DNA from: Terebella lapidaria
Taxonomy: Eukaryota > Annelida > Polychaeta > Terebellida > Terebellidae
Length of the DNA: 64,000 nt
Assembly: GCA_949152475.1 (NCBI GenBank)
Contig: OX424561.1
Location: 24,174,481-24,238,480 of the forward strand
Reading direction: 5' to 3'
Shown here: positions 20,625 through 61,000 of the stretch, piece by piece
Position numbering within the stretch: the first letter of the stretch is position 1
Layout of the letters: every line of letters starts with the position of its first letter
Translations under genes and position numbers: made by a program
The notes under the pieces: generated by a model
The model's input: only the letters and a program-made list of their open reading frames with translations
Database searches by the model: none
What the model was told of the DNA's origin: nothing

Positions 20625-20658
20625 ATCCGGACGTGGTGGCGACCAACACTACGTCCGG
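20615..20658 (+). promoter_or_regulatory. Predicted -1 ribosomal frameshift signal, gag to pol
   Basis: The heptamer GGGAAAC (20615-20621) sits in the gag frame as G GGA AAC, immediately before the TAG stop. After a 5-nt spacer, CCGGACGT (20627-20634) pairs perfectly with ACGTCCGG (20651-20658) around a 16-nt loop. A -1 slip on the heptamer enters exactly the frame of pol. The heptamer is also present in copy 2 (36031-36037, minus), where the stem has one mismatch. Confidence 0.8.
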
Positions 20659-30627: not shown

Positions 30628-32236
30628 GGGGCCGGAAGAAGGCAAGATGGCAACGCCCGGAAGTCACGGCGCAAAACTAGGACTTTAAGAGTCCCTTTTG
30701 GAAGAATGGGGAACTACCCCCGGACTTACGGAGTAAACTATAACGCGCTTTGTAATTTTGACTAAACCCTCATAAACAAGCTAAAATTTTGACCGAGGTG
30801 GTCCAAAACCGTGTGATGACCTTGGAAGGTCATCCGTTATAAAAGGACGGTGTGTCGAGTCTTTGGAATATCTTTAAGGTTAAACTTTAAATTTAGAAAT
30901 TTTGTAAAACGACACACCGTCATCCGCAGGTACTGGAGGGAGTGGGGGTACCTGCGGATCGCCGTCATCTGGCTGATAGCCGCCCAGTCCATCATCTGAC
31001 GGGTCAGAGAGGTCCGGGAGGCCCACCATACGGCGCACACGCTCGTCCGGAGTCCGCGGATGCTGACCGGACGGATCCCATACAGGAGCGTCATCCGGTT
31101 CCGCATCTTGAACGAGCGGATCCATGACTAGCGGGCCCTCGTACTTCTTCAGATTATCGATATGGACAACCAGAACCCTGTCCGGATCGGAATCCCTCCG
31201 GATCCGGTAGTCCACATCTGTCACCTGTTTCAGTACCGTAAACGGGCCTATCCACGGCTTAGCAAATTTGTTACCTTGCTTAAGCGGCGGATAATAGTAG
31301 CGCACCTTGTCTCCTTCCACAAAAGCTGGCCTGCCCTTAGCATGGGCGTCATAGCCTCGCTTCTGCCGGATGTTCAAGATAGAAAAATCGCAAGAACTTT
31401 TACTAATGGATATTTCTCTCATGATTTTTGTATTTTTATGGCCAATTTCCGATCATTTGATCTGACCAATGATAGTACGACCAAAATTCCAGGGGCCGGA
31501 AGAAGGCAAGATGGCAACGCCCGGAAGTCACGGCGCAAAACTAGGACTTTAAGAGTCCCTTTTGGAAGAATGGGGAACTACCCCCGGACTTACGGAGTAA
31601 ACTATAACGCGCTTTGTAATTTTGACTAAACCCTCATAAACAAGCTAAAATTTTGACCGAGGTGGTCCAAAACCGTGTGATGACCTTGGAAGGTCATCCG
31701 TTATAAAAGGACGGTGTGTCGAGTCTTTGGAATATCTTTAAGGTTAAACTTTAAATTTAGAAATTTTGTAAAACGACACACCGTCATCCGCAGGTACTGG
31801 AGGGAGTGGGGGTACCTGCGGATCGCCGTCATCTGGCTGATAGCCGCCCAGTCCATCATCTGACGGGTCAGAGAGGTCCGGGAGGCCCACCATACGGCGC
31901 ACACGCTCGTCCGGAGTCCGCGGATGCTGACCGGACGGATCCCATACAGGAGCGTCATCCGGTTCCGCATCTTGAACGAGCGGATCCATGACTAGCGGGC
32001 CCTCGTACTTCTTCAGATTATCGATATGGACAACCAGAACCCTGTCCGGATCGGAATCCCTCCGGATCCGGTAGTCCACATCTGTCACCTGTTTCAGTAC
32101 CGTAAACGGGCCTATCCACGGCTTAGCAAATTTGTTACCTTGCTTAAGCGGCGGATAATAGTAGCGCACCTTGTCTCCTTCCACAAAAGCTGGCCTGCCC
32201 TTAGCATGGGCGTCATAGCCTCGCTTCTGCCGGATG
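30628..32236 (-). repeat. Tandem duplication with templated insert inside copy 2
   Basis: 30628-31372 and 31492-32236 appear identical with a constant offset of 864 bp. They carry the end of pol plus the sequence next to the 3' LTR. Between them, 31373-31491 matches 28848-28965 with about one difference and in the same orientation. ATG/GGATG microhomology is visible at one junction. It is either a replication-based rearrangement or an assembly artefact. Confidence 0.85.
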
Positions 32237-35200
32237 GCAGACTTGTCCAGGCGCGCGCGCGCGAAATCATGGGCGTTCGCCAGGGCGCGGCGAACCCACT
32301 CCACGTACTCCGGACCGCAGTGGGGTACTGCGCCGGTCTCTGCCGCAGTTGGATACATGATATCCACGGGCAGATTCAGTTCCTGGCCGTACAACATCGC
32401 GTGCGGAGTAACTCCGGTCGAAGAGTGGACCGACGACCTGTACGCCATTAAGACATACAGGAGGTGGTCATCCCAATCATTCGCACGATCGTTCACAAAG
32501 GCCACCAGCATATTGAGGACCGATCCATTGAAGCGTTCGACCTGGCCATCAGACTGGGGCCTGTAGGGGGTGGTCCGCACCTTGGTACTGCCCAGCATCT
32601 GTGCTAGGTTCCGGAACAGGTTGCTCTCAAACTGCGTGCCCTGATCCGAATGTACCCCATGGTACACCACCCATCTATTCACCAGCAACTGAGCTACCTC
32701 GTCCGCAGTCTGGCGGCGCAGTGGGTAGGCATCGGTATATTTGGTGAAATAGTCGGAAATCACCAGGATGTACCGGAAACCGTGCGGGGTGACCCGGTGG
32801 GTATCCAGTATATCCAAAGCTATCCGATCGTATCCAGTATATCCAAAGCTATCTGCCTTAACCGTGGTTAAGGGGTGGCGGCCAGGAGCCGGAACTCCTT
32901 TGCGAGCTTGACACCGAGGGCAGGCTGCGCACCACCGTTGCACGTCCAAGCTGCTACCAGGCCAATGAAAGCGCTGTTGTAGCCTATGGACGGTCCTCCG
33001 GATTCCCAAGTGACCGGTCACCCGGAGGTCATGCAACTGGTGGAGTACTTCTTTCCGCAGCTCCGCCGGAAGCACCAACTGCCACATCGGAGGCAGTGGG
33101 GTCGGTGGCTCATAGCACCGGTACAAAAGGCCATCCCTCAAGGAGAGTCTTTCCCACTGGGATACTAGAGACAAAGTCTCCTCCCTGTAGGTTTTCCGCT
33201 CATCCTTAGAGGGTTTCTGGCCGGCCTCAAGGGCTGTGATTACCGGTGCCAGAGCACTGTCAGCTCTCTGCTTCGCAGCTATCTGCGCAGGAGAGTAGCC
33301 ACCCAAGTAATTAGGCTCCTCATCCGTCCGGCTGCGCCGCAGCGGCCATTACCACAGGGGGCAAGGACCGTTCATACTCAGACTCGCCAGAGGACGAGGG
33401 TACCCACGAGGAGTACACCGCTGGACTCGAGGAGGACTCGCTGGAGCTGAGCCGCACCTCCGCTTCATATGCGGGACGCCCTCGCCGATATCGGCGGGTC
33501 TGCGCGCGGAGATGAGCCCTAGACGCTCCGGCCGCCGTGTTGTTAGAGGGGGCGGTGGCCTGCGGTCTCCCCGGAACGTCCAATTCCGAGTCTGAGGACG
33601 AATCCGCGGCTTGCTGGAATGGAGCCATCCCTGCACAGCCAGGATTCTTGCACTTATGACAACGGGACAGGCCGTCCGCATGCAACTTACCAGCGCGATG
33701 CTCTATTTGCATGTCATACTCCTGGAGTTTGACGAGCCACCGCGCCACCAAGCCATCGGCCTCACTATAGTTGAGGAGCCATCTCAGCGAACTGTGATCA
33801 GTCCGCAAGCGGAAATGGCGTCCCAACAAGTAATGCCGGAACCGCTTGGTCATCGTAACCACCGCGAGCAACTCGCGATGAGTGGTGCAGTAATTCATTT
33901 GAGAGCGGCTCAAGGCCACACTCGCATAAGCTACTACCCGCTCTTGCCCGTCCACGATCTGCAAGAGGACACCGCCGAGTGCAAAGTTACTCGCGTCAGT
34001 GTCCAAGATGAACTCGCAGTCCGGACGAGGGTGCCGCAGCACCGGGGCCACTACCAAGGCCTGCTGGAGTCCCGAGAAGGCGTCAGCCTGCTCGGCCGAC
34101 CAAACAAAATCGGCGCCCTTTTCCGTGAGGATAGTAAGGGGACGCGCGATCTCCGCAAAGCCGCGAATAAACCTGCGGTGGTAGCTCGCGAAGCCCAAGA
34201 AGGACCTCACGTCCGCCACGTTACATGGCGGAGGCCATTTCTGTATGGCCGCCACCTTTGCGGGGTCTGGTCTCACTCCGGTGCCCGTTACCATGAAGCC
34301 CAAGTACAGGATTTCCTGCGCGAATAGTTCGCACTTACTTGGCTTCAATTTAAGCCCTGCTCCGCGGATGCGATGGAGCACCATTTGGAGGTTGGTGAGG
34401 GTTTCCTCGAACGACCGGCCATACACGACGACATCGTCGATGTAGACCATACATCGCTTCCAGAGGAAGCCTTTTAGAACCATCTCCATGAGGCGCTCGA
34501 ACGTCGCTGGTGCGTTACAGAGCCCGAACGGCATTACCTTGAATTGGTAGAGCCCGTTCTTGGTAACGAAGGCAGCCTTCGCCCGATCACTCTCCTCCAT
34601 CTCCACCTGCCAATACCCAGAGGCCAGATCCGAAGCACAGAAATAGTGCGACCCGGCCAGGGCATCGAAGGTGTCCTCAATGTGCGGGAGAGGATATGAG
34701 TCCTTCCGCGTGGCATCGATGAGTTTACGATAATCCACGCAGAACCTCCACGAGCCGTCCTTCTTCTTCACCATAACCACAGGGCTGGCCCAAGGGCTGT
34801 CACTGGGTTCGATGATGTCCAAGTCGAGCATCTTTTGCACCTCCTGGTCTATGACCTCTTGGTGCACTATCGCTGCCCGACGAAGACGCTGCTTGAGAGG
34901 ACGCTCGTCCACGAGGTCGATGTGGTGTTTGGCGACGTCAGTCTTGCCAACCGCACCATCTGGACCCATGAACACATCCGCATACTGCCGCAGCAGTTTA
35001 CGGGGCGCTTGGCGCAGCTCTTCATCCAGCCGGTCCTTCGGAACCCAAGACTCCAAATGGTCCGGCAGGGTGAACGGGTCATCCCCGGTGGCCGCCACCG
35101 CGCACACAGCGCGGCAGACAGGATCGTCGGGGAGGACACGACTCGATGACGCGGGAGTAGCAGTAGCTGCTATGCATCCGCGCAGCAGTATAATAGGAGC

Positions 35201-36037
35201 ATCCGTAGGATTCACCACAAGGATGGGCATCGCGCAGGGGTTGGACATGACCAGGGCCCCACCCAGCACCAGTCCGGTTCCTTCGGCGAAACTGCTCACT
35301 GGTTGCACTATACACGGCCGACCATCGAGGGGCATGCGGGGACGACGCGGCCTCGCCTCAATGATCATCTCACTCATTGGCGGCACTACCACAGTGCGCG
35401 CCGCCCGCATTTGGAATGAATGCATCGGGCCCGAGCAGAAGAGAAAGTGTATGTCCTCTCCCATCCGGAATTCGCCAGCACTAAAGTTGGCGGTCACCCG
35501 GTGGACCCGTAGAAAATTCATCCCAAAAATCCCGGCCGCTCCGATATCCGCAACGATTGCCTCTGTCATATACACCTTGTCCCCAAGGGTAATAGGCAGA
35601 TCGATGATACCGTGGATACGGATGCAGTTGTCACCCGCTCCGTAGAGCTTGTACGGTCCGGGATCCCGCAACTCAAGGTTGCGGAGCGCGGGCTCCTTCC
35701 TGAACGTTCCTGCGGCAACGAGGGTCACCTCCGAGCCAGAGTCCACGAGGAACCGGACCGGCTCCCGTCTGAAGGACAGGGGCAGGTACCAGCAGGGGTC
35801 CCTCACCAGCGCGCAGGTAGGGCGATACCGTTCGCACACGCTGGGCTCATCTACAGAGTCCTCACCATCCGCCTCAGCCGCGGAGGAGCCAGACTGATCC
35901 CCAAGGACTACTTCCGGAGAAGTCATATCTACTTGAGGTTCGTCCTGCCCATCAGGGGGTGGGGCGGCATCTGATGCCACGGAACAACTGTCCCCGGATG
36001 TAGTGTTGGTCGCCACCACGTCCGGATCTAGTTTCCC
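31744..36037 (-). pseudogene. pol: pol, Ty3/gypsy copy 2, frameshifted
   Basis: One long frame (36030 down to 33320) holds protease, an RT retaining the block deleted in copy 1 with its Y-I-D-D, and RNase H. A 5-bp deletion near 33322 shifts the frame. A second frame (33306 to 31744) holds the integrase with HHCC, D-D-E and the GPF/Y-type module. In the integrase, four residues just before the second catalytic Asp are missing and a short tandem duplication (plus-strand 32826-32850) adds residues near the first. The C-terminus runs out across the 2.3-kb deletion junction into non-coding sequence, so the last residues are not original. Confidence 0.9.
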
Positions 36038-38003
36038 TGCCGCGGGTTCAGGCCTTGCTGTCCCGGAGGACCACACCGGAAGGACTTCCTCCATTGTAGG
36101 CCATGGATGGCTCCCTGGTATCCGCGCGACCGCAGGCGTTCTAACAACTCCGGACACTTCAGCCAAAAGTGTCCCTGCTTTTCGCAGAAGTAACAGGGAT
36201 GGTTCTGGGCTGGTCCGGAGGTGAACGCGCAACATTCTGCGGGTCCCGGAGCTTCGATCCCGGCGCAGTACGCAATCATCTGCGCGGCGCCGAAATTGTA
36301 TTGCTCCATGTCGCACTCGTCCGAGGACGAGCACGGCGCGGCGACTGGTGCCGCATGTGCGGGCATCCCTGTGGAGGGTGCCGGCGCACTAACCCACTGC
36401 GGGGTAGGTTCCCTGGCGGGTTCCCGGACGACCGGGTCCTGCCACGGGGTTACCTGCGATGCTTTGGCTGGAGGAGGGGTCGCCGCCTGCGCGGGAACAG
36501 CCGAGGCCGGAGCCGGGGCCGGAGGCAACTGTCTAGGGCGGACAGCTACCTCGAGCGCAAGCGCGGAGTCAATCGCCTCCTCCATCAATCGCTTTTCATG
36601 GGTGGCCAGCCTCATGATAAGTGGTAAGGCTGGCCATCGATGAACTGATCGATCAGCATCGTCTCAAACCGTCTGGAGTCCATGTCCGGATAAGCTCTCC
36701 GACCGAGTATGCGCAGGTTGAACGCATAGTCTGTCACGGACTCAGTCGGTTGGCGGGTTCGCGCTTTGAACTCTCGTTCAAACTGCCGCCGGTTGGTCGT
36801 CGGCGTGAACAGCAAGCGAAGTTGACAGGCAACCTCGCCGAAGGTCACTGTTCCCACCGGCAGACACGGCATAACGCGGAGAGCTTTTCCTTCCAAGCTC
36901 CCCGCGAGGACATGCCCAGCTTCCTGCTGGGTCCATCCTTCGTACACGGCGATCCGCCACACTTGGAGCAAGTAGTCCTCCAAGTCGGCGTTATCCCCGT
37001 TGAACCGTTTCCGCCACGATGAGTGGTCGGGCCCGTCATCACGTTTGTTACGCGCCCGACGTGCGGTTCCGGCTCCGGGGTCGTCCGTGTACAGCGGCAA
37101 GGCCCGCGAGCTACCCGTGCCTGCGGCGGAGTCTGCCGGAGGGACGGTCGACGCGGTTGCCAACGTGGTGCCTCCGAGCCGCGGAGCAAGCGCGGATCCC
37201 ATTGCGGGGACCACTGTCGCCTGCATGCTCGGCAGGACTTGGGGAGGGGCCATGGGCCCAGTCATCCCCGGACTATCCACGGCCGAAGGATCGACGCTCG
37301 GAGGCGGCTGATTCTGCTTGAACTGTACAAGTGCCTCGGATATCAGCCACCTCTCCCTCTCCGTCAAAGGCCCCGAGTTGCCTTGTGACGGCGGAGAGGG
37401 TGAACGGTTCCGCCGGTCTGATCGTCCCTGGTGGGGCGACTGGGCGCGGTCGTAGCGCCCTAAAGGAGCCAGCGCACTTAGAGTGTTAGTGAGTTGGTCC
37501 ATTCCGCCTGATGCGGACCGCCTGGAATCCCCGCCGGGAGCCCTCGCAAAAGCTCCTCCGGCCGGAGGTGGCATCCAGTATCGCTGGTCCGCCTGTCCGG
37601 AGGTGCTCGCGCCGGCGTCCACTCGATCCCGGACATCCGGAGATGTCCCCTGAAAGAGCGTCGCCTGCCACGACCCCCGCCCGGACTTAGGCGGGCGCGG
37701 TGTAAAGCCGTTGCCAGCTCCACCTACCGCGCCTAACGGATCAGGGCTAGGCCCTGATCGCAACCTCGGTTGCGGCCCCACGGGGCGCGACTCTACGTCC
37801 GGAGACGGAGTCAGGGACACCGGAGTCGACTCTGTAGATGGGGTTTCGTCCACGGAGGTCTCCGCACGTACCTTACTACCGCCGGAGTCACCCGAAGATG
37901 TCTCACGGCGGTCGTCGCTCGACCGGGTGCGGTCCGCGACGTTACCACCCGTTTCCCTCCCCTTGGGTTCATTGTCTTTGTCTTTATCTCTTTCCTTCGC
38001 CAT
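36028..38003 (-). pseudogene. gag: gag, Ty3/gypsy copy 2, one frameshift
   Basis: It starts at ATG 38003 with a charged MAKERDKDKD-type N-terminus. This part is longer and more complete than in copy 1. The capsid-like region follows. A 1-base loss near 36612 shifts the frame. The second part contains the CCHC knuckle and ends with TAG at 36028-36030, directly after the slippery heptamer (36031-36037, read GGGAAAC on the minus strand). Confidence 0.88.
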
Positions 38004-42325: not shown

Positions 42326-43494
42326 CTAGTTTGGTTTTCTAAGCACCACCACAAGGTGTTTCGCATTATCAGGGCATTGTGTATGTTCTATTTGTTCCCA
42401 GTTTGCTAGAAGATGCTGCAGGCGTTTTGACCCGTACACTCGGTGAGCGTTCCATACGATGAAGCTGGAATCATCACTTGATCCAGGCACTCCAAGCACA
42501 AATATACCGCCCGGTTTGAGCACGCACCAGACTTGAGCTACGGCCTCCATGTCCCCGTACGGATTCATGGGATCGCCATATCTACCAAGACCGGAGTGCT
42601 CAAGGGAAGAAAACGATACTGCGAATGAGATGTCATGGACTGAACCCGCTAGGAACATTTCGGCAAAGTCGTACGGATTGTTGATTGTTAGCTTCGGATG
42701 GTGTACTCTTAGATTCCCATACTCCAGAGTCAAGACATGCGTCGCTTTGTGCATTACTAGCAAAGACTCTAACCATGGCTTCTTTGTACCTATGACGAGT
42801 GTGTTCGCACCGTCAATCTCTCTTCTGTACTTTGCTAACATATTCATCACACAGCCACCGTCGTCATATGAGTTGATATTTTCTCCTATTTTCGCCCTAG
42901 TAATGTAATTTTGAATTTTGTCGCTATTTTGTGTGTCTCTGCGGGTTCTATTTGGTTTTGGAGCGCTTCCAAAATAACGAAAACCTTTGATTGGGCTTTC
43001 ACCAAACTGCTCAAATTCCTCTAGGAGTTCGACTGGTGGTTCTCGCGGGTTTGGCCGAATTACTGTTTGGTTTTTGTAGGCCATCCGTCGCATGATATTG
43101 TCGCAATTGATTCGTTTCTTCAGTGAAGGGTAATAGCTGTCATCGCCATGAGTTCGTTCCACCTTATATGAACATATCTCACCACAAGGCGGATATGGAG
43201 CTGGAACAGTTGGGAAAGTGCAAGCAGTTCACAACAAGATGCTCATGGAAACGAATACATTGCCAGATACATACATCTACCCCTACCTTGTTGTCGCCAT
43301 GCTAAAATAGAGAGCCTGGAATCGGCGTTGTCAGGAATCGCTCGCAATCTATCCAGCAGAAATACCATCAACAACAGACTTGTTAGAACCAGGATCCATC
43401 TACAGCAGTTACGGCCTGACTTTCTTAAGTGGGAGTCGGTAAGTGACCTGTTGAAAGTAATAACACCCAGTTTCCACTGTTTGACTGATATCAT
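42326..43494 (-). CDS. Membrane-anchored DUF268 methyltransferase-like protein, two exons
   Basis: Exon 1 is 43494-43287, the intron 43286-43201 (86 bp), and exon 2 43200-42326, giving 360 residues. The donor is AAG|GTAGGG and the acceptor TTCCAG|CT after a pyrimidine run. The phase-1 junction keeps the frame and joins two open frames. Residues about 33-50 (WILVLTSLLLMVFLLDRL) form one membrane segment after a basic N-terminus, so a type II membrane protein, perhaps Golgi or ER, is likely. The DUF268 family (first described in Caenorhabditis) is seen in VIGTKKPWLESL and LTLEYGNL (about 205-232), SSLEHSGLGRYGDP (266-280), VLKPGG (296-301) and WNAHRVYG (319-326). The fold resembles SAM-dependent methyltransferases. 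The substrate is unknown. The frame looks intact, unlike the copy at 53626-55892. Confidence 0.88.
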
Positions 43495-46445: not shown

Positions 46446-46851
46446 GTGTTATTTATGGAAAAATACATAACTTACTGCCAATATCACTTTAATATCTGTG
46501 TCGCATAAGTGGTCTATCAACTACGGCATGCTCATAATACATAGGCCTACACGCTAAAGGATAGTAGGATTGGAAAGCGTAAGAATATGTCCGAGAGACA
46601 CGCCGCATGGCACGTTTAGAATATATGCTGTTATTGAACTCATTGCTATAAAATGGTTTGTAATATTAAATTATTTGTAATTATAGGTACTGAGTCAGAG
46701 GTGATTCCCTATCGAATCTCGCAACCTAATCGGACGGATATACATCCGGGCGAAGCCCTCACAACAAATCACGTGAAACTACACGGTGTTTAAATTGTAA
46801 CATACCACTTTATTATGAGAATATATTATGACAATATTTCAATATATACAG
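46446..46851. other. Spacer, then left end of the duplicated DUF268 locus
   Basis: 46446-46736 holds nothing recognisable. 46737-46851 matches 42048-42165, the 3' flank of the DUF268 gene, and ends with the LINE target duplication CAATATATACAG (46840-46851). Confidence 0.6.
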
Positions 46852-47182
46852 ATAACTAACAGACAAACCAGAGGCGTGATGGCGTGATTCTAACTATGTG
46901 TTGCTCCTGAGGATGCCTGTGTTTTTAACCGTTACTGGCGCGAATTGATGGATAAATGTGTTCGCTAACGAATATAACATGTGTGAGAACATAGTGAGCA
47001 CGGATACACCAACTATATACTTGGATTTTATGTGAAAAAACATGTTGGAATAACGTTACTGGCAGTATACATGGGCGATAACTTGGACATTTTGTTCACG
47101 GTCGATTGAACTCATAGGTCAACCGGGCGGTCACACTCCACTTGCTACACAGGTTGTATAACAGGCTGTATAACTCAACACA

Positions 47183-48319
47183 ATGGCGTCTATTGACAAA
47201 AAACTCGACACTCTCTTAGAAAAAATTGACAATCTTCAAGCCACTGTGGATGAAAATGCTACCAAATTAACGGCGCTCCAAAACAAACTAACTGAAGTTG
47301 AATCGGAAAATACGATATTGAAACTGCAACTGAACGTTCTGAAACATAAACAAGAAATATTTGACAGTAGAGTGACGACACTGGAACAAGAGGACTGTAA
47401 GCGAAGCATCCAATTCCTTGGTGTCCCTGAGCAAAAAAATGAGAACGCAAAACAGCGTGTTACTTCAATCTTGAACTCTGTGGGGGTTCCGACTGACGAT
47501 AAGTCAATTCTGTCAGCGAATCGACTGGGGAGATACACCAAAAACAAAACACGACCGATAACAGTACGTTTTTCCCACCCGCACGATCGTAATTTTGCCT
47601 GGAAAACTCGTGACAAGCTGTCCGATCCGATTCGTATGAGGCAGCTCTTCCCACCGGCTGTACAGACCAAACGGAGAGTCCTCCAGCAAATCGTCAATCT
47701 CGCCTACACTCTGGATGATTTCAAGGAAGATACCTACCTTGTACAGGACCGCTTGCTCGTTAAGGGTCATACTTATACGATTGCAACCCTCCATCTACTT
47801 CCAGAGGCGCTACAAAAAGTAATCGGATGTACTGCAGATGAGGACCTATTGTACGTCTACGGGGTTCAAAGTCCATTCTCCAATTTCTATCCTGCTGACT
47901 TCGTCGTTGACGGAATTCAGTACAACTGTGCGGAGCAGGCGTACTTCCATAAGAAGTCTGTATATTACGGTGAAGCTACGTGCGGGGCTCGGATCCTAGC
48001 GGAGACCCAACCTGCGATCCAGAAACAAATCGGCGAATCGTTTGGGAAGCGAGACTGGGGGAACCCGATAAAGGCACTCACGTCCATGTCTTCTATCGTC
48101 CTGGAGAAGTTCCGGCAGAGCAAATATCTCTCGCGAATCCTTCTGGAGACCGGTGATAGGTCCCTGGTCGAAAGCAATCCTTTTGACTCGTACTGGGGAA
48201 CTGGTATAAGTGCGACGGATGCCATCCACCGAGGAAACACCTGGCCAGGGACTAATGTGATGGGCGACATCTTACGTGATGTTCGTAAGGCGATCCAACC
48301 CGTATCTGATTCCAAGTAA
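47183..48319 (+). CDS. LINE ORF1: coiled coil, RRM-like and CTD-like regions fused to a NADAR domain
   Basis: 378 residues. 1-72 is a heptad-rich coiled coil, probably for oligomerisation. 73-145 resembles the RRM of L1-type ORF1p (SIQFLGVPE, RPITVRF, KTRDKL) and 148-200 its C-terminal domain, so RNA binding and particle formation are expected. 222-372 is a NADAR (YbiA-like) domain: SPFSNFYP (230-237), C-A-E-Q-A-Y with Glu251, LEKFRQSKYLSRILLETGD (307-325), LVESNPFDSYWGTG (328-341) and GTNVMGDILRDVR (356-368). NADAR proteins act on ADP-ribose-linked substrates; some remove ADP-ribose from guanosine. The motif set looks complete, but activity is an inference. The stop TAA abuts the next ATG in the same frame. 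Confidence 0.9.
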   Translation: MASIDKKLDTLLEKIDNLQATVDENATKLTALQNKLTEVESENTILKLQLNVLKHKQEIFDSRVTTLEQEDCKRSIQFLGVPEQKNENAKQRVTSILNSVGVPTDDKSILSANRLGRYTKNKTRPITVRFSHPHDRNFAWKTRDKLSDPIRMRQLFPPAVQTKRRVLQQIVNLAYTLDDFKEDTYLVQDRLLVKGHTYTIATLHLLPEALQKVIGCTADEDLLYVYGVQSPFSNFYPADFVVDGIQYNCAEQAYFHKKSVYYGEATCGARILAETQPAIQKQIGESFGKRDWGNPIKALTSMSSIVLEKFRQSKYLSRILLETGDRSLVESNPFDSYWGTGISATDAIHRGNTWPGTNVMGDILRDVRKAIQPVSDSK

Positions 48320-48925
48320 ATGTCGTCAGAATCATCCATCATGTCTTCCAGACTCGTCATCGCCTCATCTCTTGTGAAAGATATTAAGTATATTAACGAT
48401 ACGGATATCTACTCTTTAAGAGGTGCGAGAGTCGAGGATGTCACGAATGTAGTGGCCAAAAGACATAATATCACTCAGCAATATGACGCAATATTTCTCC
48501 TGTGTGGAGGGAACAATATTGAAACTGACTCTCCAATGGATATTGTGTGTAAACTGCACGATTTAGCTAACCTAATCTTATCAATTAACCCACAATGTGT
48601 AGTCGTGATCTCATGTCTGATTCCTAGGCCTAGAATTGATGATCTGCGTAAAGAAAAGTTTTTGGAAACAAATAGGTTGATCAAAACAGAATGCGCCACC
48701 TGGGGCAAACATATTATGTCTGTCGCCACATACAAATTGTTCACTTCCGGTGGTAAAATTGACGAAAGATATTACTGTGCTGATGGAGTACATCTTAATT
48801 CAGATGGTAGCAAAAGGTTGAAGCAGCACATTTGTCAGGCGCTATCCAAGTTTGCCTTTAAAGCCCGTCGATTTGTCCACGGTGAAACGCACTGTTTCCC
48901 CAGACGTGAGTTGTCAAGGTTTTAA
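48320..48925 (+). CDS. LINE SGNH/GDSL-type hydrolase ORF
   Basis: 201 residues. The block I-like region is V-I-A-S-S-L with Ser16/Ser17 as candidate nucleophile. The block III-like region is C-G-G-N-N (62-66). The block V-like region is C-A-D-G-V-H-L-N, with Asp155 and His158 as the catalytic pair. Esterase domains of this type are known in ORF1 of CR1-like LINEs. The ATG follows the TAA of the NADAR ORF with no gap and in the same frame. The region may therefore be made by reinitiation or readthrough, or the stop may be a mutation in a single larger ORF1. The last 30 residues are basic. Confidence 0.82.
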   Translation: MSSESSIMSSRLVIASSLVKDIKYINDTDIYSLRGARVEDVTNVVAKRHNITQQYDAIFLLCGGNNIETDSPMDIVCKLHDLANLILSINPQCVVVISCLIPRPRIDDLRKEKFLETNRLIKTECATWGKHIMSVATYKLFTSGGKIDERYYCADGVHLNSDGSKRLKQHICQALSKFAFKARRFVHGETHCFPRRELSRF

Positions 48926-49841
48926 ATTAATACAACTTACTTTAAACATTCTGTGTGTAAATGCAACAGACGGTTCTCCACTAATTTCAATAATATCTCC
49001 ATTATCGCCTCATGTATACATGAACATGTGGTACTTATTGGTGTTGATAGATAACGTTACTGTAGGAGAAATATCACTGGCAGTAGGATAAGACTGAATG
49101 AGTACGTGTATCCGAAATCATTCCGATTTCGTGCTGGAAAGATATATTTCTGGATTATAAATGGTGTGTGAATATATTGTACTAGTACTGTACGAGTGTA
49201 TATAGTAGGTTGTATACCCATACCTAACCCATGTCCGTTCACAGTATTATTAACATGAGCACACATGTAGTGGTGTCCACAGTTCTCCTGAGGTGCTTGC
49301 TCTTGTTGCTTGAACATGAGGCTGCCCAGCCTGGCATGTTGGTTGCATGAGTGGGTATCAATGAAGAAAATTGTGAGCAGTGACCATTCTAATCGACTTC
49401 CGTGTAATCTAATGGCGCTTTTTCATGCTACTTGAACATGGGGCTGTCCAGCCCGGCATGTTAGTGGCCTATACAAACGTCAAACTATAACCGGTATTAC
49501 TGTGTTATACATACATCATCAACGATGACAAGCATTATTATGGTCACTGAGTTGTATATTTACCTGATAGTATATATTGTGTTTCTACGGTTGTCGGTGT
49601 GTCAAAAGTGTATGTTACAATTGCAAAGGCTTATGTTTTGTCAGTTATTTATGGTGCTCAGCTTGTTTTGACATCTATCCACGCGCAATATGTTAAATGT
49701 ATTTCTATATAATCAACTGAAATCCTCAAGCAACATGGTGTAACTTGTAATCACGCTAAAAGGGCGCGTTTTTCGTTTCTCCTTTCCGTTTTTGTAATTT
49801 TGTGAATGCATGTAAGCTTGTCAGTTAGTGTGTGAATCAGT
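48926..49841 (+). other. LINE inter-ORF region
   Basis: No open frame of note. A 37-bp sequence containing CTTGAACATG, GGCTG-CC-CAGCC and GGCATGTT occurs twice (49309-49345 and 49431-49467) with a 122-bp period. Each copy holds a short GC-rich inverted repeat, so it may be structured RNA. It could be a leader for the downstream ORF, but the function is unknown. Confidence 0.5.
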
Positions 49842-52800
49842 ATGTGTGACTTGATGCAATACCGACTATTTGTTGGACTTTTTCTTTGTATGATACGGGG
49901 AAACGCGAGAACATTTCGATCTGAGAAATTTTTCTGGTGCTTTATCTATCTGAACTATATCTTTAATATATATGTTTTACCGATCATAATTAGCACTTGT
50001 GGAGATGTAGAATCAAACCCAGGGCCTAACCTTGAGCAGAAAATAGTTATTGGTCATCTGAACGCGCGCAGCCTCCTGGCCCAAGGTCTTGATCGCTCTG
50101 TTTCGAAAATCGATGAAATAAAATCGTTTGTATTGTTGAATAACTTGTCAATATTAGCTGTGAGCGAAACCTGGCTTGACGGTTCAATTGAGAATGACGC
50201 TCTTACCTTTACCGGCTATTCGCAAGTCATACGTCGGGACCGAAATAGACGTGGCGGTGGTCTCTGTGTTTTTATTAAAGACGAATGTCCAGCAAAGCGT
50301 CGACTGCAGTTCGAACCTACAGATAGTGAGACTGTGTGTGTAGAACTGCAGTTAAAAAATGCTAAATTCTAAATTTACTTTCGCTACAAACCCCCCTCAT
50401 ATAACACGGCAGATTTTTTAAGTGGCCTTGAACGTTCGATTTCCAAAGTGAATGGTTACACATCATTGATGTTTATGGGAGATTTCAATTGTAAGCACTC
50501 TTCTTTCTGTCCACATGATCAAAACACGCCAGAAGGTGCACTATTGAAGCAATTTTTCGACTCTCTCGGATGTTCGCAGTTCATACATGAACCCACTCGA
50601 TTTCATGGCACAAATCAATCGTGCCTAGATTTGTTTTTTTGCAACAACCCATCACTGATTTGCAATCAAGTGGTGCATCCTCTGATAAATAACTGTGACC
50701 ATGCCCCAGTCTCTATTACTTTGACCAGCAAAGTCAATTATGTACATGCTTTTCAACGAAATGTTTGGAATTTTAGTCGTGGAGATTTCAACATGCTAAG
50801 AAATCTCTTGACCGCTTCACGCTGGGACAGCGTGTTTTCGAAAGATAATGTGAATGATTGTGTTGTCGAGTTCATGTCAATACTGAAGGAACTCTCTGAA
50901 TTTTGTATCCCTCATTATACAACTACTATTCGTCCACAAGATAAGCCCTTTATGAATGGGGAGCTTAGAAATCTAATGCGTAAGCGTGACCGATTACATA
51001 AAATATTTAAGCATGTTCCCAATGACTATAATAGGTTGAAATACAACGCGTCTAGAAACGAAGTAGTAAACTGCTTGCGAAAAACAAAACTGGAATTCGA
51101 ATCGGCGAGTTTACTTAATCTTCAAAGAGAAAAAGCTAAATCTAACCCTAAATCATACTGGAAATCCCTGCGATCATTCTTTCGACAGAATTGCGCACCC
51201 ACGAATGCACCCCTTTTCTTTAGTAATGCAATCATTGTTGATCCGATGGAAAAGGCCGAGCTATTTAACGATTATTTTGTGCGTCAAACATACCTGGAAG
51301 ATTCAGATGTCTTGCTTCCGGATCATATTTCCCCTAATTCGCAATCATCTCTTGATGTCCCTTGCATCAAAGAAATTGATGTTTACAAGATATTATACAA
51401 TTTGGACACCAGCAAGGCCACGGGCCCCGACGAGATTGGTAATCTCATATTGAAAGAAGTAGCTTACCCAATTGCGAAACCATTGTGTCGTATTTTCAAT
51501 ATGAGTCTACAGAAAGGAATATATCCTGATGTATGGAAAATTGCCCAAGTGATCCATCTGCACAAAAAATGTAGCATTAATTTGTGTGAAAATTTTCGCC
51601 CAATATCCTTATTATGCTGTGTATCCAAGGTTTTTGAGAGGTTAATACATAACCATGTGTATGAATATCTGTCACAATTTAAACTGCTGACGAGTTTTCA
51701 ATCAGGATTTTGTCCAGGAGACTCGACTGTGAGGCAGATCGTATCTATATGTCATAAAATTTACACCAGTCTCGACAATGGAGACGAAGTTATCTCCGTC
51801 TTTCTTGACTTTCGCAAAGCTTTCGATACGGTTTGGCATCGGGGATTACTTTGGAAAATGAAGAAGTTGGGGATATGCAATCATTTATTGCAATGGTTCC
51901 AAAGCTATCTATCCAACAGGTATCAATATGTCGCTCTCCAAGGCAAGTTTTCGTCACTAAGGCCAATTAATGCTGGTGTTCCACAGGGGTCAGTACTTGG
52001 TCCTCTTCTGTTCTTGATATTTATCAATGATATATGCGAAGGTATTTCTTCTAATATCCAGCTCTATGCTGATGACACCTCCCTTTTTAGAGCAGTAAAA
52101 AAGGGCAACATGATTAGAGCAGTGAACGACATGAATAAAGATCTTGATAAAATCTGCAAATGGTGCGCTCAGTGGCTCTTGCAGTTAAACACAGACAAAA
52201 GCATTGTCTTATTAATTTCCCGAAAGCTGACACCCACGCCCTTATTGCCCGTCCGAATTGGGAGCTCAATCCTGACCCAAACTGAAACGCATAAGCATCT
52301 TGGACTCACGATCAACTCTCGTTTCACTTGGTCTGATCATATCGCATGTATTCTGAGCAAGTCAAACAAACGTCTAAACATGCTTCAGTCATTGAAAAAG
52401 AGTCTTCCGCGTTCTTCTCTCGAGACATTGTATAAGTCTTACATCAGACCACTTCTGGAATATGCTGACATTGTTTGGGACAATTGTAGTTTAGCACTTC
52501 AAAAGTCTATCGAAGACATTCAATTAAGGGCAGCTCGGATAGTCACGGGGGCGAAGCGTCGAACGTCACATGAATCTCTTTACAAAGAACTTGGTTGGGA
52601 AAAGATGTCTAAACGACGGAACTCGCATAAATTGATCTTTCTTCATGAACTACAACTGAAGAAGGCCCCCAAACACCTGTTCGATATTCTTCCCACTGTA
52701 ACTAATACCACTCGTCCGCTTAGAAATTCCACTTTGCCTCAATTCCACTTCAAGACGGATTTATTTCGCAAGTCCACCTTACCCTCATCTATAGCGTTGT

Positions 52801-53240
52801 ACAACAGGCTGGATCAATCCTACAAATCTAGAACAAGTATATCAGCTTTTAAGAGTGCAATGAAAAGTACGAATGTGGACTCGAAACAAGAATTATATAA
52901 CCTCGGAACTCGTTACTTGCAGATATTAACCGCACAAATACGAATGAACTTCTCCGATCTGAAATATGATTTATTCTCTAAAGGCTGCATCGATAACGGT
53001 ACGTGTTTTTGCAATCAAGCCATGGAGACCAGTTATCACTATTTCTTTGAATGTGAGCTATATGAGAGCGAAAGGCACACTCTATTTGATACTTTATACG
53101 ACTGTCTTGAAAATGATGATGTGGAGTTCACAGTGGATACTCTGGTGTCAGGCTCACCTATATTGTCTCTTGATATGAACAAAATAATCCTCTATGCTAC
53201 ACATAATTTCATTCTATCATCGAAGAGATTTCTAAAGTAA
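49842..53240 (+). pseudogene. LINE ORF2: 2A peptide, APE endonuclease, reverse transcriptase; one in-frame stop
   Basis: ATG 49842 opens a frame that continues to 53240 except for a single TAA at 50370-50372 inside the endonuclease; both sides are in the same frame. Residues 1-50 contain hydrophobic runs resembling a signal peptide, then a 2A motif (53-62). APE signatures are HLNARS (Asn74), SETWLDG (Glu109), then GDFN and CDHAPVS in the second part. RT blocks are FLDFRKAFDTVWH, GVPQGSVLGPLLF and the Y-A-D-D active site at 52065-52076. The C-terminus has a C-x-C...H...C cluster near 53010-53055. Without the stop it would be a complete ORF2. I call it broken because the stop truncates the endonuclease. 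Confidence 0.9.
49998..50027 (+). other. 2A ribosome-skipping motif in LINE ORF2
   Basis: Residues C-G-D-V-E-S-N-P-G-P match the 2A consensus D-V/I-E-x-N-P-G-P exactly. Skipping is expected between Gly61 and Pro62, releasing a hydrophobic 61-residue leader from the endonuclease-RT. Such 2A sequences are known in APE-type LINEs of several invertebrates. Confidence 0.9.
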
Positions 53241-53436
53241 ATGTTCTCCGTTTCCTCGAATCGTTTGTATCGCGTATATACATGTTATTTGATTGGTGTT
53301 GCATTTATGTATCGCATTGTAAAGTACTGATGTGTATGAATGTGTGTGTGTGTATGTGTGTGTGTGCAGGGGTATGTGTGTACTGTATTTTGAAAAGCCG
53401 CATCATTAGCCAATTGTGCTATTTGGCAATTCATTC

Positions 53437-53442
53437 AATAAA
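53437..53442 (+). terminator. LINE poly(A) signal
   Basis: AATAAA lies 12 bp before the 3' end of the element, as expected for the retrotransposed transcript. Confidence 0.65.
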
Positions 53443-53466
53443 ATATGTTTAAACCAATATATACAG

Positions 53467-53625
53467 CCAATATTATGCCATTTATTACTGTATTGAACAG
53501 ACATAGAAGCGCGGGTAAATAAACTCCTAAAAATGTCCAACATCGTGGATTTACCATAAATTTGTAGTTACAACGAAAAATACCAAACTTTTAGAGAATT
53601 ACTGTATAAGGGATAAATAAAAGGT
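53467..53625. other. 3' flank of the second DUF268 copy
   Basis: This resumes the duplicated locus immediately after the LINE target duplication and matches 42170-42330. Confidence 0.7.
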
Positions 53626-55892
53626 CTAGTTACCAGGGCATTGTGTATGTTCTATTTGTTCCCAGTTTGCTAGCACATGCTGTAGGCGTTTTGACCCGTA
53701 CACTCGGTGAGCGTTCCATACGATAAAGCTGGAATCATCACTTGATACAGGTAACCCAAGCACGGAAATACCGCCGGGTTTGAGCACGCACCAGACTTGA
53801 GCTACAGCCTCCATGTCCCCGTACGGATTCATGGGGTCGCCATATCTACCCAAACCGGAGTGCTCAATGGAAGAAAACGATACCGCAAATGAGATGTCAT
53901 GGACTGAACCCGCTAGGAACATTTCGGCAAAGTCATACGGATTGCTGATTGTTAGCTTCGGGTGATGTACTCTTAGATTCCCATACTCCAGAGTCAAGAC
54001 ATGCGTCGCTTTGTGCATTACTAGCAAAGACTCTAACCATGGCTTATTTGTCCCTATGACGAGTGTGTTCGCACCATAAATCTCTCTTCTGTACTCTGCT
54101 AACATATTCATAACACATCCATCAAAATCTACTGTATTTGTGGTAATAGATTGATACCTACATTCATACCACTGAGTCGGTATCACTGCTGGCGGACGTT
54201 AAATCTGTCCCCGAGGATACCATCAACTCAGTAGCCTTCTGGCTATTGATTAGGTACTTATGTACTTGTCATATATCTGTTCCATGGGGTTTGTTTCGGA
54301 ATTCTAAAATATTTTCATAGGTTGTTGGGCAGTTGTATACTAATTCCATCAGGTGTACAGTAGAAACAACTACATTTAATACACTGTCTGCCCCTGATGA
54401 CGCCAGTGTGTCTTTGGATAAACTGTTTGGTCGGGCTTTGTTTCTATTGCAGAATGTTGTACTTTATGTTTGCTATTGGCATCTTCAAAATCTACTGTAT
54501 TTGTGGAAATAGATTGATACCTACATTCATACCACTGAGTCGGTATCACTGCTGGCGGACGTTAAATCTGTCCCCGAGGATACCATCCACTCAGTAGCCT
54601 TCTGGCTATTGATTAGGTACTTATGTACTTGTCATATATCTGTTCCATGGGGTTTTGTTTCGGATTTCTAAAATATTTTCATAGGTTGTTGGGCAGTTGT
54701 ATACTAATTCCATCAGGTGTACAGTAGAAACAACTACATTTAATACACTGTCTGCCCCTGATGACGCCGGTGTGTCTTTGGATAAACTGTTTGGTCGTGC
54801 TTTGTTTCTATTGCAGAATGTTGTACTTTATGTTTGCTATTGGCATCTTCAAAATCTACTGTATTTGTGGTAATAGATTGATACCTACATTCATACCACT
54901 GAGTCGGTATCACTGCTGGCGGACGTTAAATCTGTCCCCGAGGATACCATCAACTCAGTAGCCTTCTGGCTATTGATTAGGTACTTATGTACTTGTCATA
55001 TATCTGTTCCATGGGGTTTGTTTCGGATTTCTAAAATATTTTCATAGGTTGTTGAGCAGTTGTATACTAATTCCATCAGGTGTACAGTAGAAACAACTAC
55101 ATTTAATACACTGTCTGCCCCTGATGACGCCAGTGTGTCTTTGGATAAACTGTTTGGTCGGGCTTTGTTTCTATTGCAGAATGTTGTACTTTATGTTTGC
55201 TATTGGCATCTTCAAAATCTACTCTATTTGTGGTATAGATTGATACCTACATTCACCGTCGTCATATGAGTTGATATTTTCTCCCATTTTCGCCCTAGTA
55301 ATGTAATTTTGAATTTTGTCGCTATTTTGTGTGTCTCTGTGGGTTCTATTTGGTTTTGGAGCGCTTCCAAAATAACGAAAACCTTTGATTGGGCTTTCAC
55401 CAAACTGCTCGAATTCTTCTAGGAGTTCACCTGGTGGTTCACGTGGATTTGGCCGAATTACTGTTTGGTTTTTGTAGGCCATCCGTCGCATGATGTTTTC
55501 ACAGTTGATTCGTTTCTTCAGTGAAGGGTAATAGTTATCATCGCCATGAGTTCGTTCGACCTTATATGAACATATTTCACCACAAGGCGGATATGGATCT
55601 GGAATGGTTGGAAAAGTGCAAGCAGTTCACAACAAGATGCTCATGGAAACGAATATATTGCCAGATACATACATCTACCCCTACCTTGTTGTCGCCATGC
55701 TAAAATAGGGAGCCTGGAATCGGCGTTGTCAGGAATCGCTCTCAATCTATCCAGCAGAAATACCATCAACAACAGACTTGTTAGAAACAGGATCCATCTA
55801 CAGCTGTTATGGCCTGACTTTCTAAAGTGGGAGTCGGTATGTGACCTGTTGAAAGTAATAACACTCAGTTTCCACTGTTTGACTGATATCAT
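53626..55892 (-). pseudogene. DUF268 gene, second copy, disrupted
   Basis: Exon 1 (55892-55685) and the short intron are conserved with copy 1. Exon 2 starts normally and reads to about 55253, where a tandem array (54124-55252) interrupts it just after the residues ENINSYDDG. Coding similarity resumes at about 54123 and runs to 53626. A deletion of about 40 bp near 53634 removes the normal C-terminus. The remaining sequence is still highly similar to the intact copy, so duplication and inactivation are recent. No functional product is expected. Confidence 0.88.
54124..55252 (+). repeat. Tandem array, about 3.1 units of 363 bp, inside the DUF268 pseudogene
   Basis: The marker AAAATCTACT recurs at 54124, 54487, 54851 and 55213, giving periods of 363, 364 and 362 bp. 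It is homologous, in reverse orientation, to the array at 5670-6707. Both arrays stop at the same point in the unit (after TTGATAC[C/A]TACAT), while their other ends differ. Short open frames recur once per unit but are not evidence of coding. Confidence 0.88.
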
Positions 55893-58022: not shown

Positions 58023-61000
58023 CATATCTTTGTTCACCGGCCATCATGTTGGTCTCAGCGAGACTGTCTTCTGAGGTCTCGGGAAGCCCCTGGGGGACTG
58101 GCGTGTCCATGGTGCCGTTCTCGGGACTGTCTTCTGAGGTCTCGGGAAGCCCCTGGGGGACTGGCGTGTCCATGGTGCCGTTCTCGGGACTGTCTTGTAA
58201 GGTCTCTGGAAGCCCCTGGGGGACTGGCGTGTCCATGGTGCCGTTCTGGGGACTGTCTTCTGAGGTCTCGAGAAGCCCCTGGGGGACTGGCGTGTCCATG
58301 GTTCCGTTCTCGGGACTGTCTTGTAAGGTCTCGGGAAGCCCCTGGGGGACTGGCGTGTCCATGGTGCCGTTCTCGGGACTGTCTTCTGAGGTCTCGGGAA
58401 GCCCCTGGGGGACTGGCGTGTCCATGGTGCCGTTCTCGGGACTGTCTTCTGAGGTCTCGGGAAGCCCCTGGGGGACTGGCGTGTCCATGGTGCCGTTCTC
58501 GGGACTGTCTTGTAAGGTCTCGGGAAGCCCCTGGGGGACTGGCGTGTCCATGGTGCCGTTCTCGGGACTGTCTTCTGAGGTCTCGGGAAGCCCCTGGGGG
58601 ACTGGCGTGTCCATGGTGCCGTTCTCGGGACTGTCTTCTGAGGTCTCGGGAAGCCCCTGGGGGACTGGCGTGTACATTGTGCCGTTCTCGGGACTGTCTT
58701 CTGAGGTCTCGGGAAGCCCCTGGGGGACTGGCGTGTCCATGGTGCCATTCTCGGGACTGTGTTCTGAGGTCTCGGGAAGCCCCTGGGGGACTGGCGTGTA
58801 CATGCTGCCGTTCTGGGGACTCTCTTCTGAGGTCTCGGGCGTGTACATTGTGCCGTTCTCGGGACTGTCTTCTGAGGTCTCGGGAAGCCCCTGGGGGACT
58901 GGCGTGTCCATGGTGCCGTTCTCGGGACTGTGTTCTGAGGTCTCGGGAAGCCCCTGGGGGACTGGCGTGTACATGGTGCCGTTCTCGGGACTGTCTTCTG
59001 AGGTCTCGAGAAGCCCCTGGGGGACTGGCGTGTCCATGGTGCCGTTCTCGGGACTGTCTTCTGAGGTCTCGGGAAGCCCCTGGAGGACTGGCGTGTCCAT
59101 GGTGCCGTTCTCGGGACTGTCTTGTAAGGTCTCGTGAAGCCCCTGGGGGACTGGCGTGTCCATGGTGCCGTTCTCGGGACTGTCTTCTGAGGTCTCGGGA
59201 AGCCCCTGGGGGACTGGCGTGTCCATGGTGCCGTTCTCGGGACTGTCTTCTGAGGTCTCGGGAAGCCCCTGGGGGACTGGCGTGTCCATGGTGCCGTTCT
59301 CGGGACTGTCTTCTGAGGTCTCGGGAAGCCCCTGGGGGACTGGCGTGTCCATGGTGCCGTTCTCGGGACTGTCTTGTAAGGTCTCGGGAAGCCCCTGGGG
59401 AATGGCGTGTCCATGGTGCCGTTCTTGGGACTGTCTTCTGAGGTCTCGGGAAGCCCCTGGGGGACTGGCGTGTCCATGGTGCCGTTCTCGGGACTGTCTT
59501 CTGAGGTCTCGGGAAGCCCCTGGGGGACTGGCGTGTACATGGTGCCGTTCTCGGGACTGTCTTCTGAGGTCTCGGGAAGCCCCTGGGGGACTGGTGTGTC
59601 CATGGTGCCGTTCTCGGGACTGTCTTCTGAGGTCTCGGGAAGCCCCTGGGGGACTGGCGTGTACATGGTGCCGTTCTGGGGACTGTCTTCTGAGGTCTCG
59701 GGAAGCCCCTGGGGGACTGGCGTGTCCATGGTGCCGTTCTCGGGACTGTCTTCTGAGGTCTCGGGAAGCCCCTGGAGGACTGGCGTGTCCATGGTGCCGT
59801 TCTCGGGACTGTCTTGTAAGGTCTCGTGAAGCCCCTGGGGGACTGGCGTGTCCATGGTGCCGTTCTCGGGACTGTCTTCTGAGGTCTCGCGAAGCCCCTG
59901 GGGGACTGGCGTGTCCATGGTGCCGTTCTCGGGACTGTCTTCTGAGGTCTCGGGAAGCCCCTGGGGGACTGGCGTGTCCATGGTGCCGTTCTCGGGTCTG
60001 TCTTGTAAGGTCTCGGGAAGCCCCTGGGGGACTGGCGTGTCCATGGTGCCGTTCTCGGGACTGTCTTCTGAGGTCTCGGGAAGCCCCTGGGGGACTGGCG
60101 TGTCCATGGTGCCGTTCTCGGGACTGTCTTCTGAGGTCTCGGGAAGCCCTTGGGGGACTGGCGTGTCCATGGTGCCGTTCTCGGGACTGTCTTCTGAGGT
60201 CTCGGGAAGCCCCTGGGGGACTGGCGTGTCCATGGTGCCGTTCTCGGGACTGTGTTCCGAGGTCTCGGGAAGCCCCTGGGGGACTGGCGTGTACATGGTG
60301 CCGTTCTGGGGACTGTCTTCTGAGGTCTCGGGAAGCCCCTGTGGGACTGGCGTGTCCATGGTGCCGTTCTCGGGACTGTCTTCTGAGGTCTCGGGAAGCC
60401 CCTGGAGGACTGGCGTGTCCATGGTGCCGTTCTCGGGACTGTCTTGTAAGGTCTCGTGAAGCCCCTGGGGGACTGGCGTGTCCATGGTGCCGTTCTCGGG
60501 ACTGTCTTCTGAGGTCTCGGGAAGCCCCTGGGGGACTGGCGTGTCCATGGTGCCGTTCTCGGGACTGTCTTCTGAGGTCTCGGGAAGCCCCTGGGGGACT
60601 GGCGTGTACATGGTGCCGTTCTCGGGACTGTCTTCTGAGGTCTCGGGAAGCCCCTGGGGGACTGGCGTGTCCATGGTGCCGTTCTCGGGACTGTCTTCTG
60701 AGGTCATGTTGATGATTCCGGGAATCATTTTTTCATCAAATGTGTCATCTATAGCACACATGACATTGTCGTATGCATCAGGGTCAAGGATATCATGAAG
60801 GTTGAAGCTGCATTCGGTGCTTTCTGGTTCATCAACTGACTGACACTTTTGAGTTGCATTTACTGGCAACATCACCACAAAATGATTTGGAACCCATCGG
60901 GTTGCAGGGATTTTTCTGCCAGAAATATTTGTCCACATGATATATGCTGGTGACCTGTGGCTTTCGAGTCGTGGCTGGAAGGTGCGATGTGCATCCAATT

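Follow-up and report, generated by a model that had tools for sequence, protein, structure and literature searches.

The Element and Its Limits

The stretch analyzed here (the window, 64,000 nucleotides of Terebella lapidaria DNA) holds a LINE in which the ORF1 protein (ORF1p) ends in a NADAR domain. To our knowledge, animal NADARs have hardly any known role. Guanine ADP-ribosylation of nucleic acids is known mainly from toxins and bacterial defense. The first-pass annotation had placed the domain in a LINE with a 12-bp target duplication, and that duplication, CAATATATACAG, was found on both flanks of an element with the following layout:

46840..46851, no strand, 5' target-site duplication CAATATATACAG, 12 bp
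46873..53457, + strand, LINE family A, window copy; limits common to eight copies
47183..48319, + strand, ORF1; coiled coil at about aa 2–72, RRM and CTD at about aa 70–216, NADAR at about aa 222–372
47867..48295, + strand, NADAR domain proper (Pfam stretch, aa 229–371)
48320..48925, + strand, SGNH/GDSL hydrolase ORF (PF13472); aligned with families B and C and with L034
49292..49346, + strand, conserved hairpin, copy 1
49414..49468, + strand, conserved hairpin, copy 2
49842..53240, + strand, ORF2; 2A-like GDVESNPGP near the start, endonuclease, reverse transcriptase
53455..53466, no strand, 3' target-site duplication CAATATATACAG; the first three bases overlap the element end

The element is identified as a LINE by the endonuclease and reverse transcriptase of ORF2, the target duplication and the existence of several copies with the same ends. 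Eight family A copies, 98.4–99.5% identical over aligned pieces, share the 5' end GGCGTGATGG (window 46873) and the 3' end TTTAAACCAA (53457, without poly-A), and the family may be young and still active. The 5' duplication lies ~21 nt from the shared 5' end; among random pairs of stretches of the same size, a match of 12 or more occurred in 12 of 2,000. Target duplications of 11–16 nt flank five of the seven other copies, the L012 site lying inside a tandem repeat, and no duplication of 9 nt or more was found in the stretches compared at L010 and L011.

Several features go beyond the first-pass annotation, namely the SGNH/GDSL ORF, the 2A-like motif of ORF2, the repeated hairpin between these two ORFs and an in-frame stop at 50370–50372 that breaks ORF2 in the window copy. 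An open ORF2 of 1134 codons was present in five of the eight copies first read, and in the genome search residues 1–1132 were matched without a stop in eight copies. The ATG of the SGNH ORF directly follows the ORF1 stop codon; its product matches PF13472 (E 5.7e-9; 37.2 bits against a cut-off of 32.9), and what we take to be the Ser, Gly, Asn, and Asp-His blocks of SGNH hydrolases are visible in the alignment. The pattern DxExNPGP occurs in all eight family A copies and in L025 and is absent from the other 17 of the 26 loci scanned; by this pattern, the ORF2 motif is a candidate translational recoding peptide.

Elsewhere in the window, two GC-rich stretches (~0.58–0.64) at 18555–24887 (+) and 31744–38003 (−) carry long ORFs that resemble Gypsy-type gag and pol by eye and represent two copies in opposite orientation. 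An ORF of 1855 codons at 58044–63611 (−) ends in a 63-bp tandem array (repeats at 58062–60705, open in several frames on both strands) and gave no Pfam hit at an E-value threshold of 0.01. The LINE is flanked by ORFs at 42326–43162 (−) and 53626–54186 (−) that encode almost identical pieces of protein, MLAKYRREIDGANTLVIGT... and MLAEYRREIYGANTLVIGT....

A YbiA-Family NADAR in the ORF1 Protein

The NADAR assignment had been made from motifs at 47846..48298, approximately aa 222–372 of ORF1p. Profile PF08719 matches aa 229–371 (E 1.4e-31; 110.4 bits against a cut-off of 35.1), and the expected motifs are in place: PFSNFYPADF at aa 231, CAEQAYFHKK at 249, LVESNPFDSYWG at 328, and GDILRDVRK at 361. 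In an AlphaFold2 model of ORF1p built on a 26-row alignment (pLDDT 92.3, pTM 0.81), approximately aa 215–375 match NADAR structures and approximately aa 28–216 match L1 ORF1p, which agrees with the coiled-coil and RRM/CTD parts described from the sequence. A Pfam search of the N-terminal half returned no L1 ORF1p family, and the assignment of this half comes from structure comparison; with the coiled coil, RRM, and CTD of the L1 ORF1p fold, the protein belongs to the Type II (L1-type) ORF1s. The profile match, the model and the structure match rule out chance similarity or an ORF artifact. Viral structures matching the model were phage and giant-virus entries and one RNA-virus polymerase entry. 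The model also weakly matches baculovirus FP25K (few polyhedra) proteins (E 1.5e-4 to 4e-4 over 176–185 columns), which are perhaps relatives of LINE ORF1 proteins.

A catalytic pocket missing from a structural model would have refuted the annotation, but residues important in NADARs studied so far are retained, and the predicted fold agrees with an ADP-ribose-bound structure. The tetrad E251-K258-E330-D335 corresponds to E43, K50, E125, and D130 of the P. nicotianae enzyme, in which E43 and K50 are described as ribose- and phosphate-binding residues (PMC11543638). Membership in the NADAR superfamily follows from the profile score, the YbiA fold and the presence of E251 and K258 at aligned places. 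The YbiA family is distinguished in PMC11125620 by a glutamate in the last strand (E125) rather than Asp or His, and the equivalent E330 occurs in 48 of 48 ORF1 rows. These rows come from an alignment of 49 ORF1s that were fetched from among the hits (46 from this genome, three metagenomic), less L023, in which the region is deleted. The tetrad is complete in 46 of the 48, both exceptions falling at the lysine (Gln in L034, Arg in P0003), and in 22 of 24 subfamilies represented by one row each at 80% identity. Across the 48 rows, 14 of 148 domain columns are invariant, including E251, E330, and D335. By sequence and model, the C terminus of ORF1p is a YbiA-family NADAR with a complete active site.

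A Putative Hydrolase on the Element RNP

We favor, at a probability of about 0.48, a reading of the sequence data in which the 5' part of the element is a portable module that spread among LINEs, and in which ORF1p would place a putative ADP-ribosyl-guanine hydrolase on the element RNP. ORF1p would coat the element RNA as a multimer, so that each RNP would carry many NADARs; these would remove ADP-ribose from guanine bases of the element RNA or nascent cDNA that host transferases had marked, by analogy with the NADARs of animal RNA viruses, which are thought to answer host ADP-ribosylation. Because such help would be independent of any given reverse transcriptase, the 5' module would have moved from one LINE lineage to another, probably when templates were switched in the course of reverse transcription. 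This module consists of ORF1, joined in three families by the SGNH ORF and the pair of hairpins between the ORFs. If the NADAR does protect retrotransposon RNA or cDNA, hosts must make such marks against transposons.

Published activities are compatible with this role. NADARs remove ADP-ribose in vitro from guanosine in RNA (PMC11833690) and in DNA (PMC11543638), and NADARs found in animal positive-strand RNA viruses have been proposed to act against host transferases (PMC9503650). However, E. coli YbiA and the T4 NADAR are weaker on RNA than a DarT1-linked NADAR (PMC11833690), and NADARs outside DarT operons rescue DarT1 toxicity inefficiently (PMC11125620).

A conserved active site would be compatible with any reaction of a NADAR, including those on small molecules. 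It is unlikely, but deserves weight, that the domain acts on small molecules near the RNP, either ADP-ribose-type signals or riboflavin intermediates like those of E. coli YbiA: the active site would be identical for either substrate, YbiA is cited in PMC9303266 as an N-glycosidase acting on unstable riboflavin intermediates, and phage NADARs have been proposed to prefer soluble derivatives (PMC9503650). Yet the examined ORF1 rows couple the domain to an RNA-binding multimer, an arrangement that argues for nucleic acid as the substrate. Riboflavin synthesis, moreover, is not known in animals. Decidedly unlikely, in our estimate, is a binding or docking function that tethers the RNP to ADP-ribosylated chromatin (for example, at nicked target DNA) or to RNA processing, with catalysis secondary. 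Such a function would have company in nematode SNA-3, whose NADAR domains are required in RNA trans-splicing (PMC9303266), and in the RNA processing proposed by the authors of the Ectocarpus study (PMC12477816), but conservation in 46 of 48 rows extends beyond the fold to the catalytic residues.

One ORF1 Upstream of Several ORF2 Lineages

The favored reading, a putative hydrolase on a portable module, can be set against the elements in which ORF1 occurs. Twenty-six loci of 5.5–10 kb each were read around ORF1 hits and grouped as follows, with identities relative to the window family:

A2 (L025): ORF1 35%, ORF2 56%; 2A present, no SGNH match
B (L016–L019, L021, L024): ORF1 ~61%, SGNH ~66% (L024 58%), ORF2 27%
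C (L020): ORF1 59%, SGNH 59%, ORF2 35%
F (L022): ORF1 49%, ORF2 35%, no SGNH match
D (L026–L030): ORF1 31–36%, ORF2 32–35%, no SGNH match
E (L031–L034): ORF1 27–32%; ORF2s 33–53% identical to the ORF2 of L034

L034 also has an SGNH ORF (E 2.8e-12), and its ORF2 aligns with human L1 ORF2p at 310 bits over aa 5–882. The window family ORF2 falls outside L1/Tx1, with 66 bits over the reverse transcriptase part only (aa 482–736), and the family B ORF2 scores 63 bits; the window ORF2 is presumably of CR1/Jockey type, judging from its reverse transcriptase motifs and from its non-L1 character. In all, at least four ORF2 lineages are preceded by NADAR-ORF1, and these include one of L1/Tx1 type.

Trees of 14 elements disagree between the two ORFs. 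The ORF1 tree separates A+B+C+F (100/99) from A2+D (99/99), whereas the ORF2 tree, which carries a long-branch warning for B and E, joins A+A2 (99/100) and C+F+D (100/99) and leaves B apart. AU tests on ORF1 reject A+A2 (p 2.6e-6) and C+F+D (3.7e-12), and those on ORF2 reject A+B (0.0017), A+B+C+F (2.7e-5), and A2+D (5.8e-4), p values that are optimistic because the groups were named after the trees had been inspected. The RRM/CTD alone recovers A+B+C+F, with P0001, at 99/96 and the NADAR alone recovers it at 100/100; since the two parts give this group separately, ORF1 moved whole. The NADAR tree also places L026 and L028, with weak attachment (81/90), beside the A+B+C+F clade.

The association was also followed from the ORF2 side by comparing 105 of the 110 ORF1 places, and 78 of the 150 NADAR places that were judged not already listed, with ORF2 hits reaching the N terminus. 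An ORF2 was counted as linked when a listed ORF1 or NADAR lay within 8 kb upstream on the same strand, for which chance is ~0.001 per ORF2. Linkage in the identity classes of ≥90%, 50–65%, and <50% was at least 8 of 11, 5 of 8, and 2 of 9 for A-type ORF2s (42 of 43 rows used) and at least 3 of 5, 0 of 6, and 3 of 25 for B-type ORF2s (all 44 rows). For L1/Tx1-type ORF2s the same classes gave at least 3 of 7, 17 of 28, and 0 of 3, using 41 of 51 ORF2 rows and 42 ORF1 or NADAR places picked by eye as near. The three family A misses, which have a complete ORF2 and no listed ORF1, were considered as possible sister copies with a NADAR-less ORF1; reading upstream revealed them to be 5'-truncated insertions. 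Many ORF2 relatives have no listed NADAR upstream (among B-type ORF2s below 50% identity at least 3 of 25 have one), and within the limits of the listed places these reverse transcriptases therefore do not appear to need the domain.

Paired Hairpins Accompany the ORF1-SGNH Module

A stretch of ~50 nt occurs twice between the SGNH ORF and ORF2 in families A, B, and C. The repeats outside family A, in ORF1-oriented coordinates, include:

L016: 3941–4006 and 4181–4245
L020: 3906–3987 and 4756–4835

This stretch is 83–88% identical between A and B/C, whereas coding DNA reaches only 63–67% where alignable. Both copies are present in 14 of the 15 A, B, and C loci read, and L013 has one. A 35-nt pattern drawn from the hairpin gave 47 matches in the whole genome at up to three mismatches, and the same pattern read backwards gave none. 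Forty-three of the 47, all in the same orientation, lie in 22 elements, where they either precede a listed ORF2 of type A or B or follow a listed ORF1 of family B or C. The hairpins accompany the ORF1-SGNH module and not ORF2. RNAalifold predicts a 20-pair hairpin (−21.5 kcal/mol), with a covariation score on six sequences that 54 of 500 shuffles reach; Rfam had no match up to E 1 in window 46800–53600 and none at the gathering score in L010, L016, and L020. A packaging or translation signal would be a plausible function. Four pattern matches lie outside listed elements, at C12:12623425–12623459 (+), C1:41067904, C13:32350953, and C5:717678; the C12 match departs from the pattern at three positions, and by eye two of these changes, C to T and G to A, lie opposite one another in the inner stem.

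The hairpins bear on the tree conflict, which could in principle reflect very unequal rates, with a fast ORF2 and a slow ORF1 in family B. The long-branch warning for B and E in the ORF2 tree, the post hoc choice of AU groups and the representation of L020 and L022 by one locus each leave some room for this. We consider it improbable, since the conflict runs both ways (A/A2 are 56% identical in ORF2 and 35% in ORF1, A/B 61% in ORF1 and 27% in ORF2), the SGNH ORF and the non-coding hairpins are common to A, B, and C and absent in A2 and D, and A and B are multi-copy families of constant layout. The same constancy rules out single-copy capture or an assembly chimera for A and B, whereas L020 and L022 leave room for a chimera or lone capture.

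That very different LINEs of one genome have the same fused protein suggests a benefit for these elements and a swapping of the protein among them. More specifically, a counter-defense cassette composed of NADAR-ORF1, joined in some families by an SGNH ORF and the paired hairpins, might have moved as a unit, perhaps between CR1-like and L1/Tx1-like elements, because it removes host ADP-ribose marks from element RNA or cDNA, with the hairpins as its packaging or translation signal. We regard this fuller proposal as doubtful; if true, it would bring reversible nucleic-acid ADP-ribosylation into the conflict between genome and retrotransposon. The genome offers multi-copy cases in which the whole 5' module is common to different LINE lineages, and such cases make testable what ORF1 brings to a foreign reverse transcriptase.

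Spread and Upkeep of the Domain

A six-frame search of the genome (761.6 Mb, 438 contigs) with ORF1 gave at least 110 matches, a lower bound because 109 of 1,086 candidates were scored; seven were 98–100% identical and the rest ranged down to 28%. Among the matches listed, 88 of 110 start at or before aa 50 and end at or beyond aa 369 and therefore span the protein from coiled coil to NADAR. A NADAR profile search gave at least 150 matches (150 of 973 candidates scored), all 150 above the cut-off. Loss of the domain from other family copies, which would have refuted the annotation, is not the pattern seen: seven of the eight copies with the common 5' end have a whole ORF1, and L023 has an internal deletion in it. 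A local tandem series at C6:12340190–12377586 (−) contains at least five NADAR matches in 37 kb; the open frame is 240 codons long in four of them and 426 codons long in another.

A dN/dS near 1 over the domain only would likewise have refuted the annotation; dN/dS over the NADAR is below 1 wherever changes suffice to tell. Distinct changes among seven family A copies comprised three synonymous and one nonsynonymous in the NADAR (p 0.04) and eight and nine in the coiled coil plus RRM/CTD (p 0.026); six copies had three and seven in SGNH (p 0.38) and 19 and 34, with one stop, in ORF2 (p 0.012). Changes in the NADAR were few in the young group B (one synonymous, two nonsynonymous; p 0.55) and in L030 with L041–L046 (four and six; p 0.14), as in the close pairs L026/L027 (dN/dS 0.55; one and two) and L051/L054 (0.83; one and three). 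Older pairs were informative: dN/dS was 0.21 for L035/L036 (p 2.6e-4) and 0.24 for L024/L016 (p 9e-4), the latter including the decayed copy L024. In L035/L036 no difference separated the NADAR from the remainder of ORF1 (Fisher p 0.30). For the comparison of A with B, NADAR dN is 0.24 and synonymous sites are saturated. A coiled-coil dN/dS for group B was discarded, the N terminus of L021 not being homologous. The NADAR is, on these sequence comparisons, under purifying selection across deeply diverged ORF1s. That it is a passenger without a role for the element is very improbable, for although the youngest groups have too few changes to reveal selection, the invariant columns described above and the synonymous excess in L035/L036 and L024/L016 argue against it.

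Origin of the LINE NADARs

Among the 120 hits listed of 458, all NADARs except P0004 are at most 39% identical to the window domain; P0004 (177 aa) is 68% identical and looks like a piece of ORF1 from another organism. Phage NADARs reach 38%. A quick tree was built from 68 rows, 23 from LINEs and 45 others taken first from the 63 left after thinning. Left free, it splits the LINE NADARs into several groups, with P0006 among them; a tree constrained to hold the LINE NADARs and P0004 in a single clade was not rejected (p 0.53). One NADAR fusion, rather than separate capture by each LINE type, is thus the simpler reading, which is not proof.

Comparison with Known Systems

Neither a NADAR in LINEs nor ORF1 exchange is new alone. 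Several Tx1 LINE families of Crassostrea gigas are reported to carry a NADAR in ORF1, and one is also reported in the Gypsy Pol of Ectocarpus; a role in processing the RNA intermediate was suggested (PMC12477816, Genome Biol 2025). Like the C. gigas elements, those described here have a YbiA-family NADAR in the LINE ORF1 protein, and L034 and its kin likewise pair an L1/Tx1-type ORF2 with NADAR-ORF1; what sets the window element apart is its 2A-bearing ORF2 of non-L1 type, together with the separate SGNH ORF and the pair of hairpins. The excerpts of PMC12477816 that deal with these elements give no anatomy, active-site, selection, or exchange analysis.

Reticulate evolution of Type II (L1-type) ORF1 is known in the CR1 and L2 lineages (PMC4120745). 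The present ORF1s resemble that type in their coiled coil, RRM, and CTD and in having been exchanged among ORF2 lineages; they differ in their NADAR, which is not among the domains listed in the relevant part of that paper, and in an exchange that reaches L1/Tx1-type ORF2s, or an old ancestor common with them. SGNH esterases occur in LINE ORF1ps, and the esterase-containing ORF1ps from RepBase are described as having no RRM (PMC3905857). An SGNH hydrolase is likewise encoded 5' of ORF2 here, but as a separate ORF beside an RRM-bearing ORF1p. 2A-like sequences are found in APE-type LINEs (Odon et al. 2013, as cited in PMC4981915), and the likeness to these is that of the motif alone, at the ORF2 N terminus. 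The NADARs of animal RNA viruses (PMC9503650) are also carried by RNA-based parasites of animals, but in polyproteins with an RNA polymerase, whereas here the domain belongs to a nucleocapsid-like protein.

Relative to the portion of the open-access literature consulted on NADARs with transposons or LINE ORF1, what appears to be new is the combination, with its conserved active site and accompanying hairpins: NADAR-ORF1 in non-L1 LINEs that have a 2A-bearing ORF2 and a separate SGNH ORF, strongly conflicting ORF1 and ORF2 trees for NADAR-ORF1 elements, and the reach of this ORF1 over both L1-type and non-L1 ORF2s in one genome.
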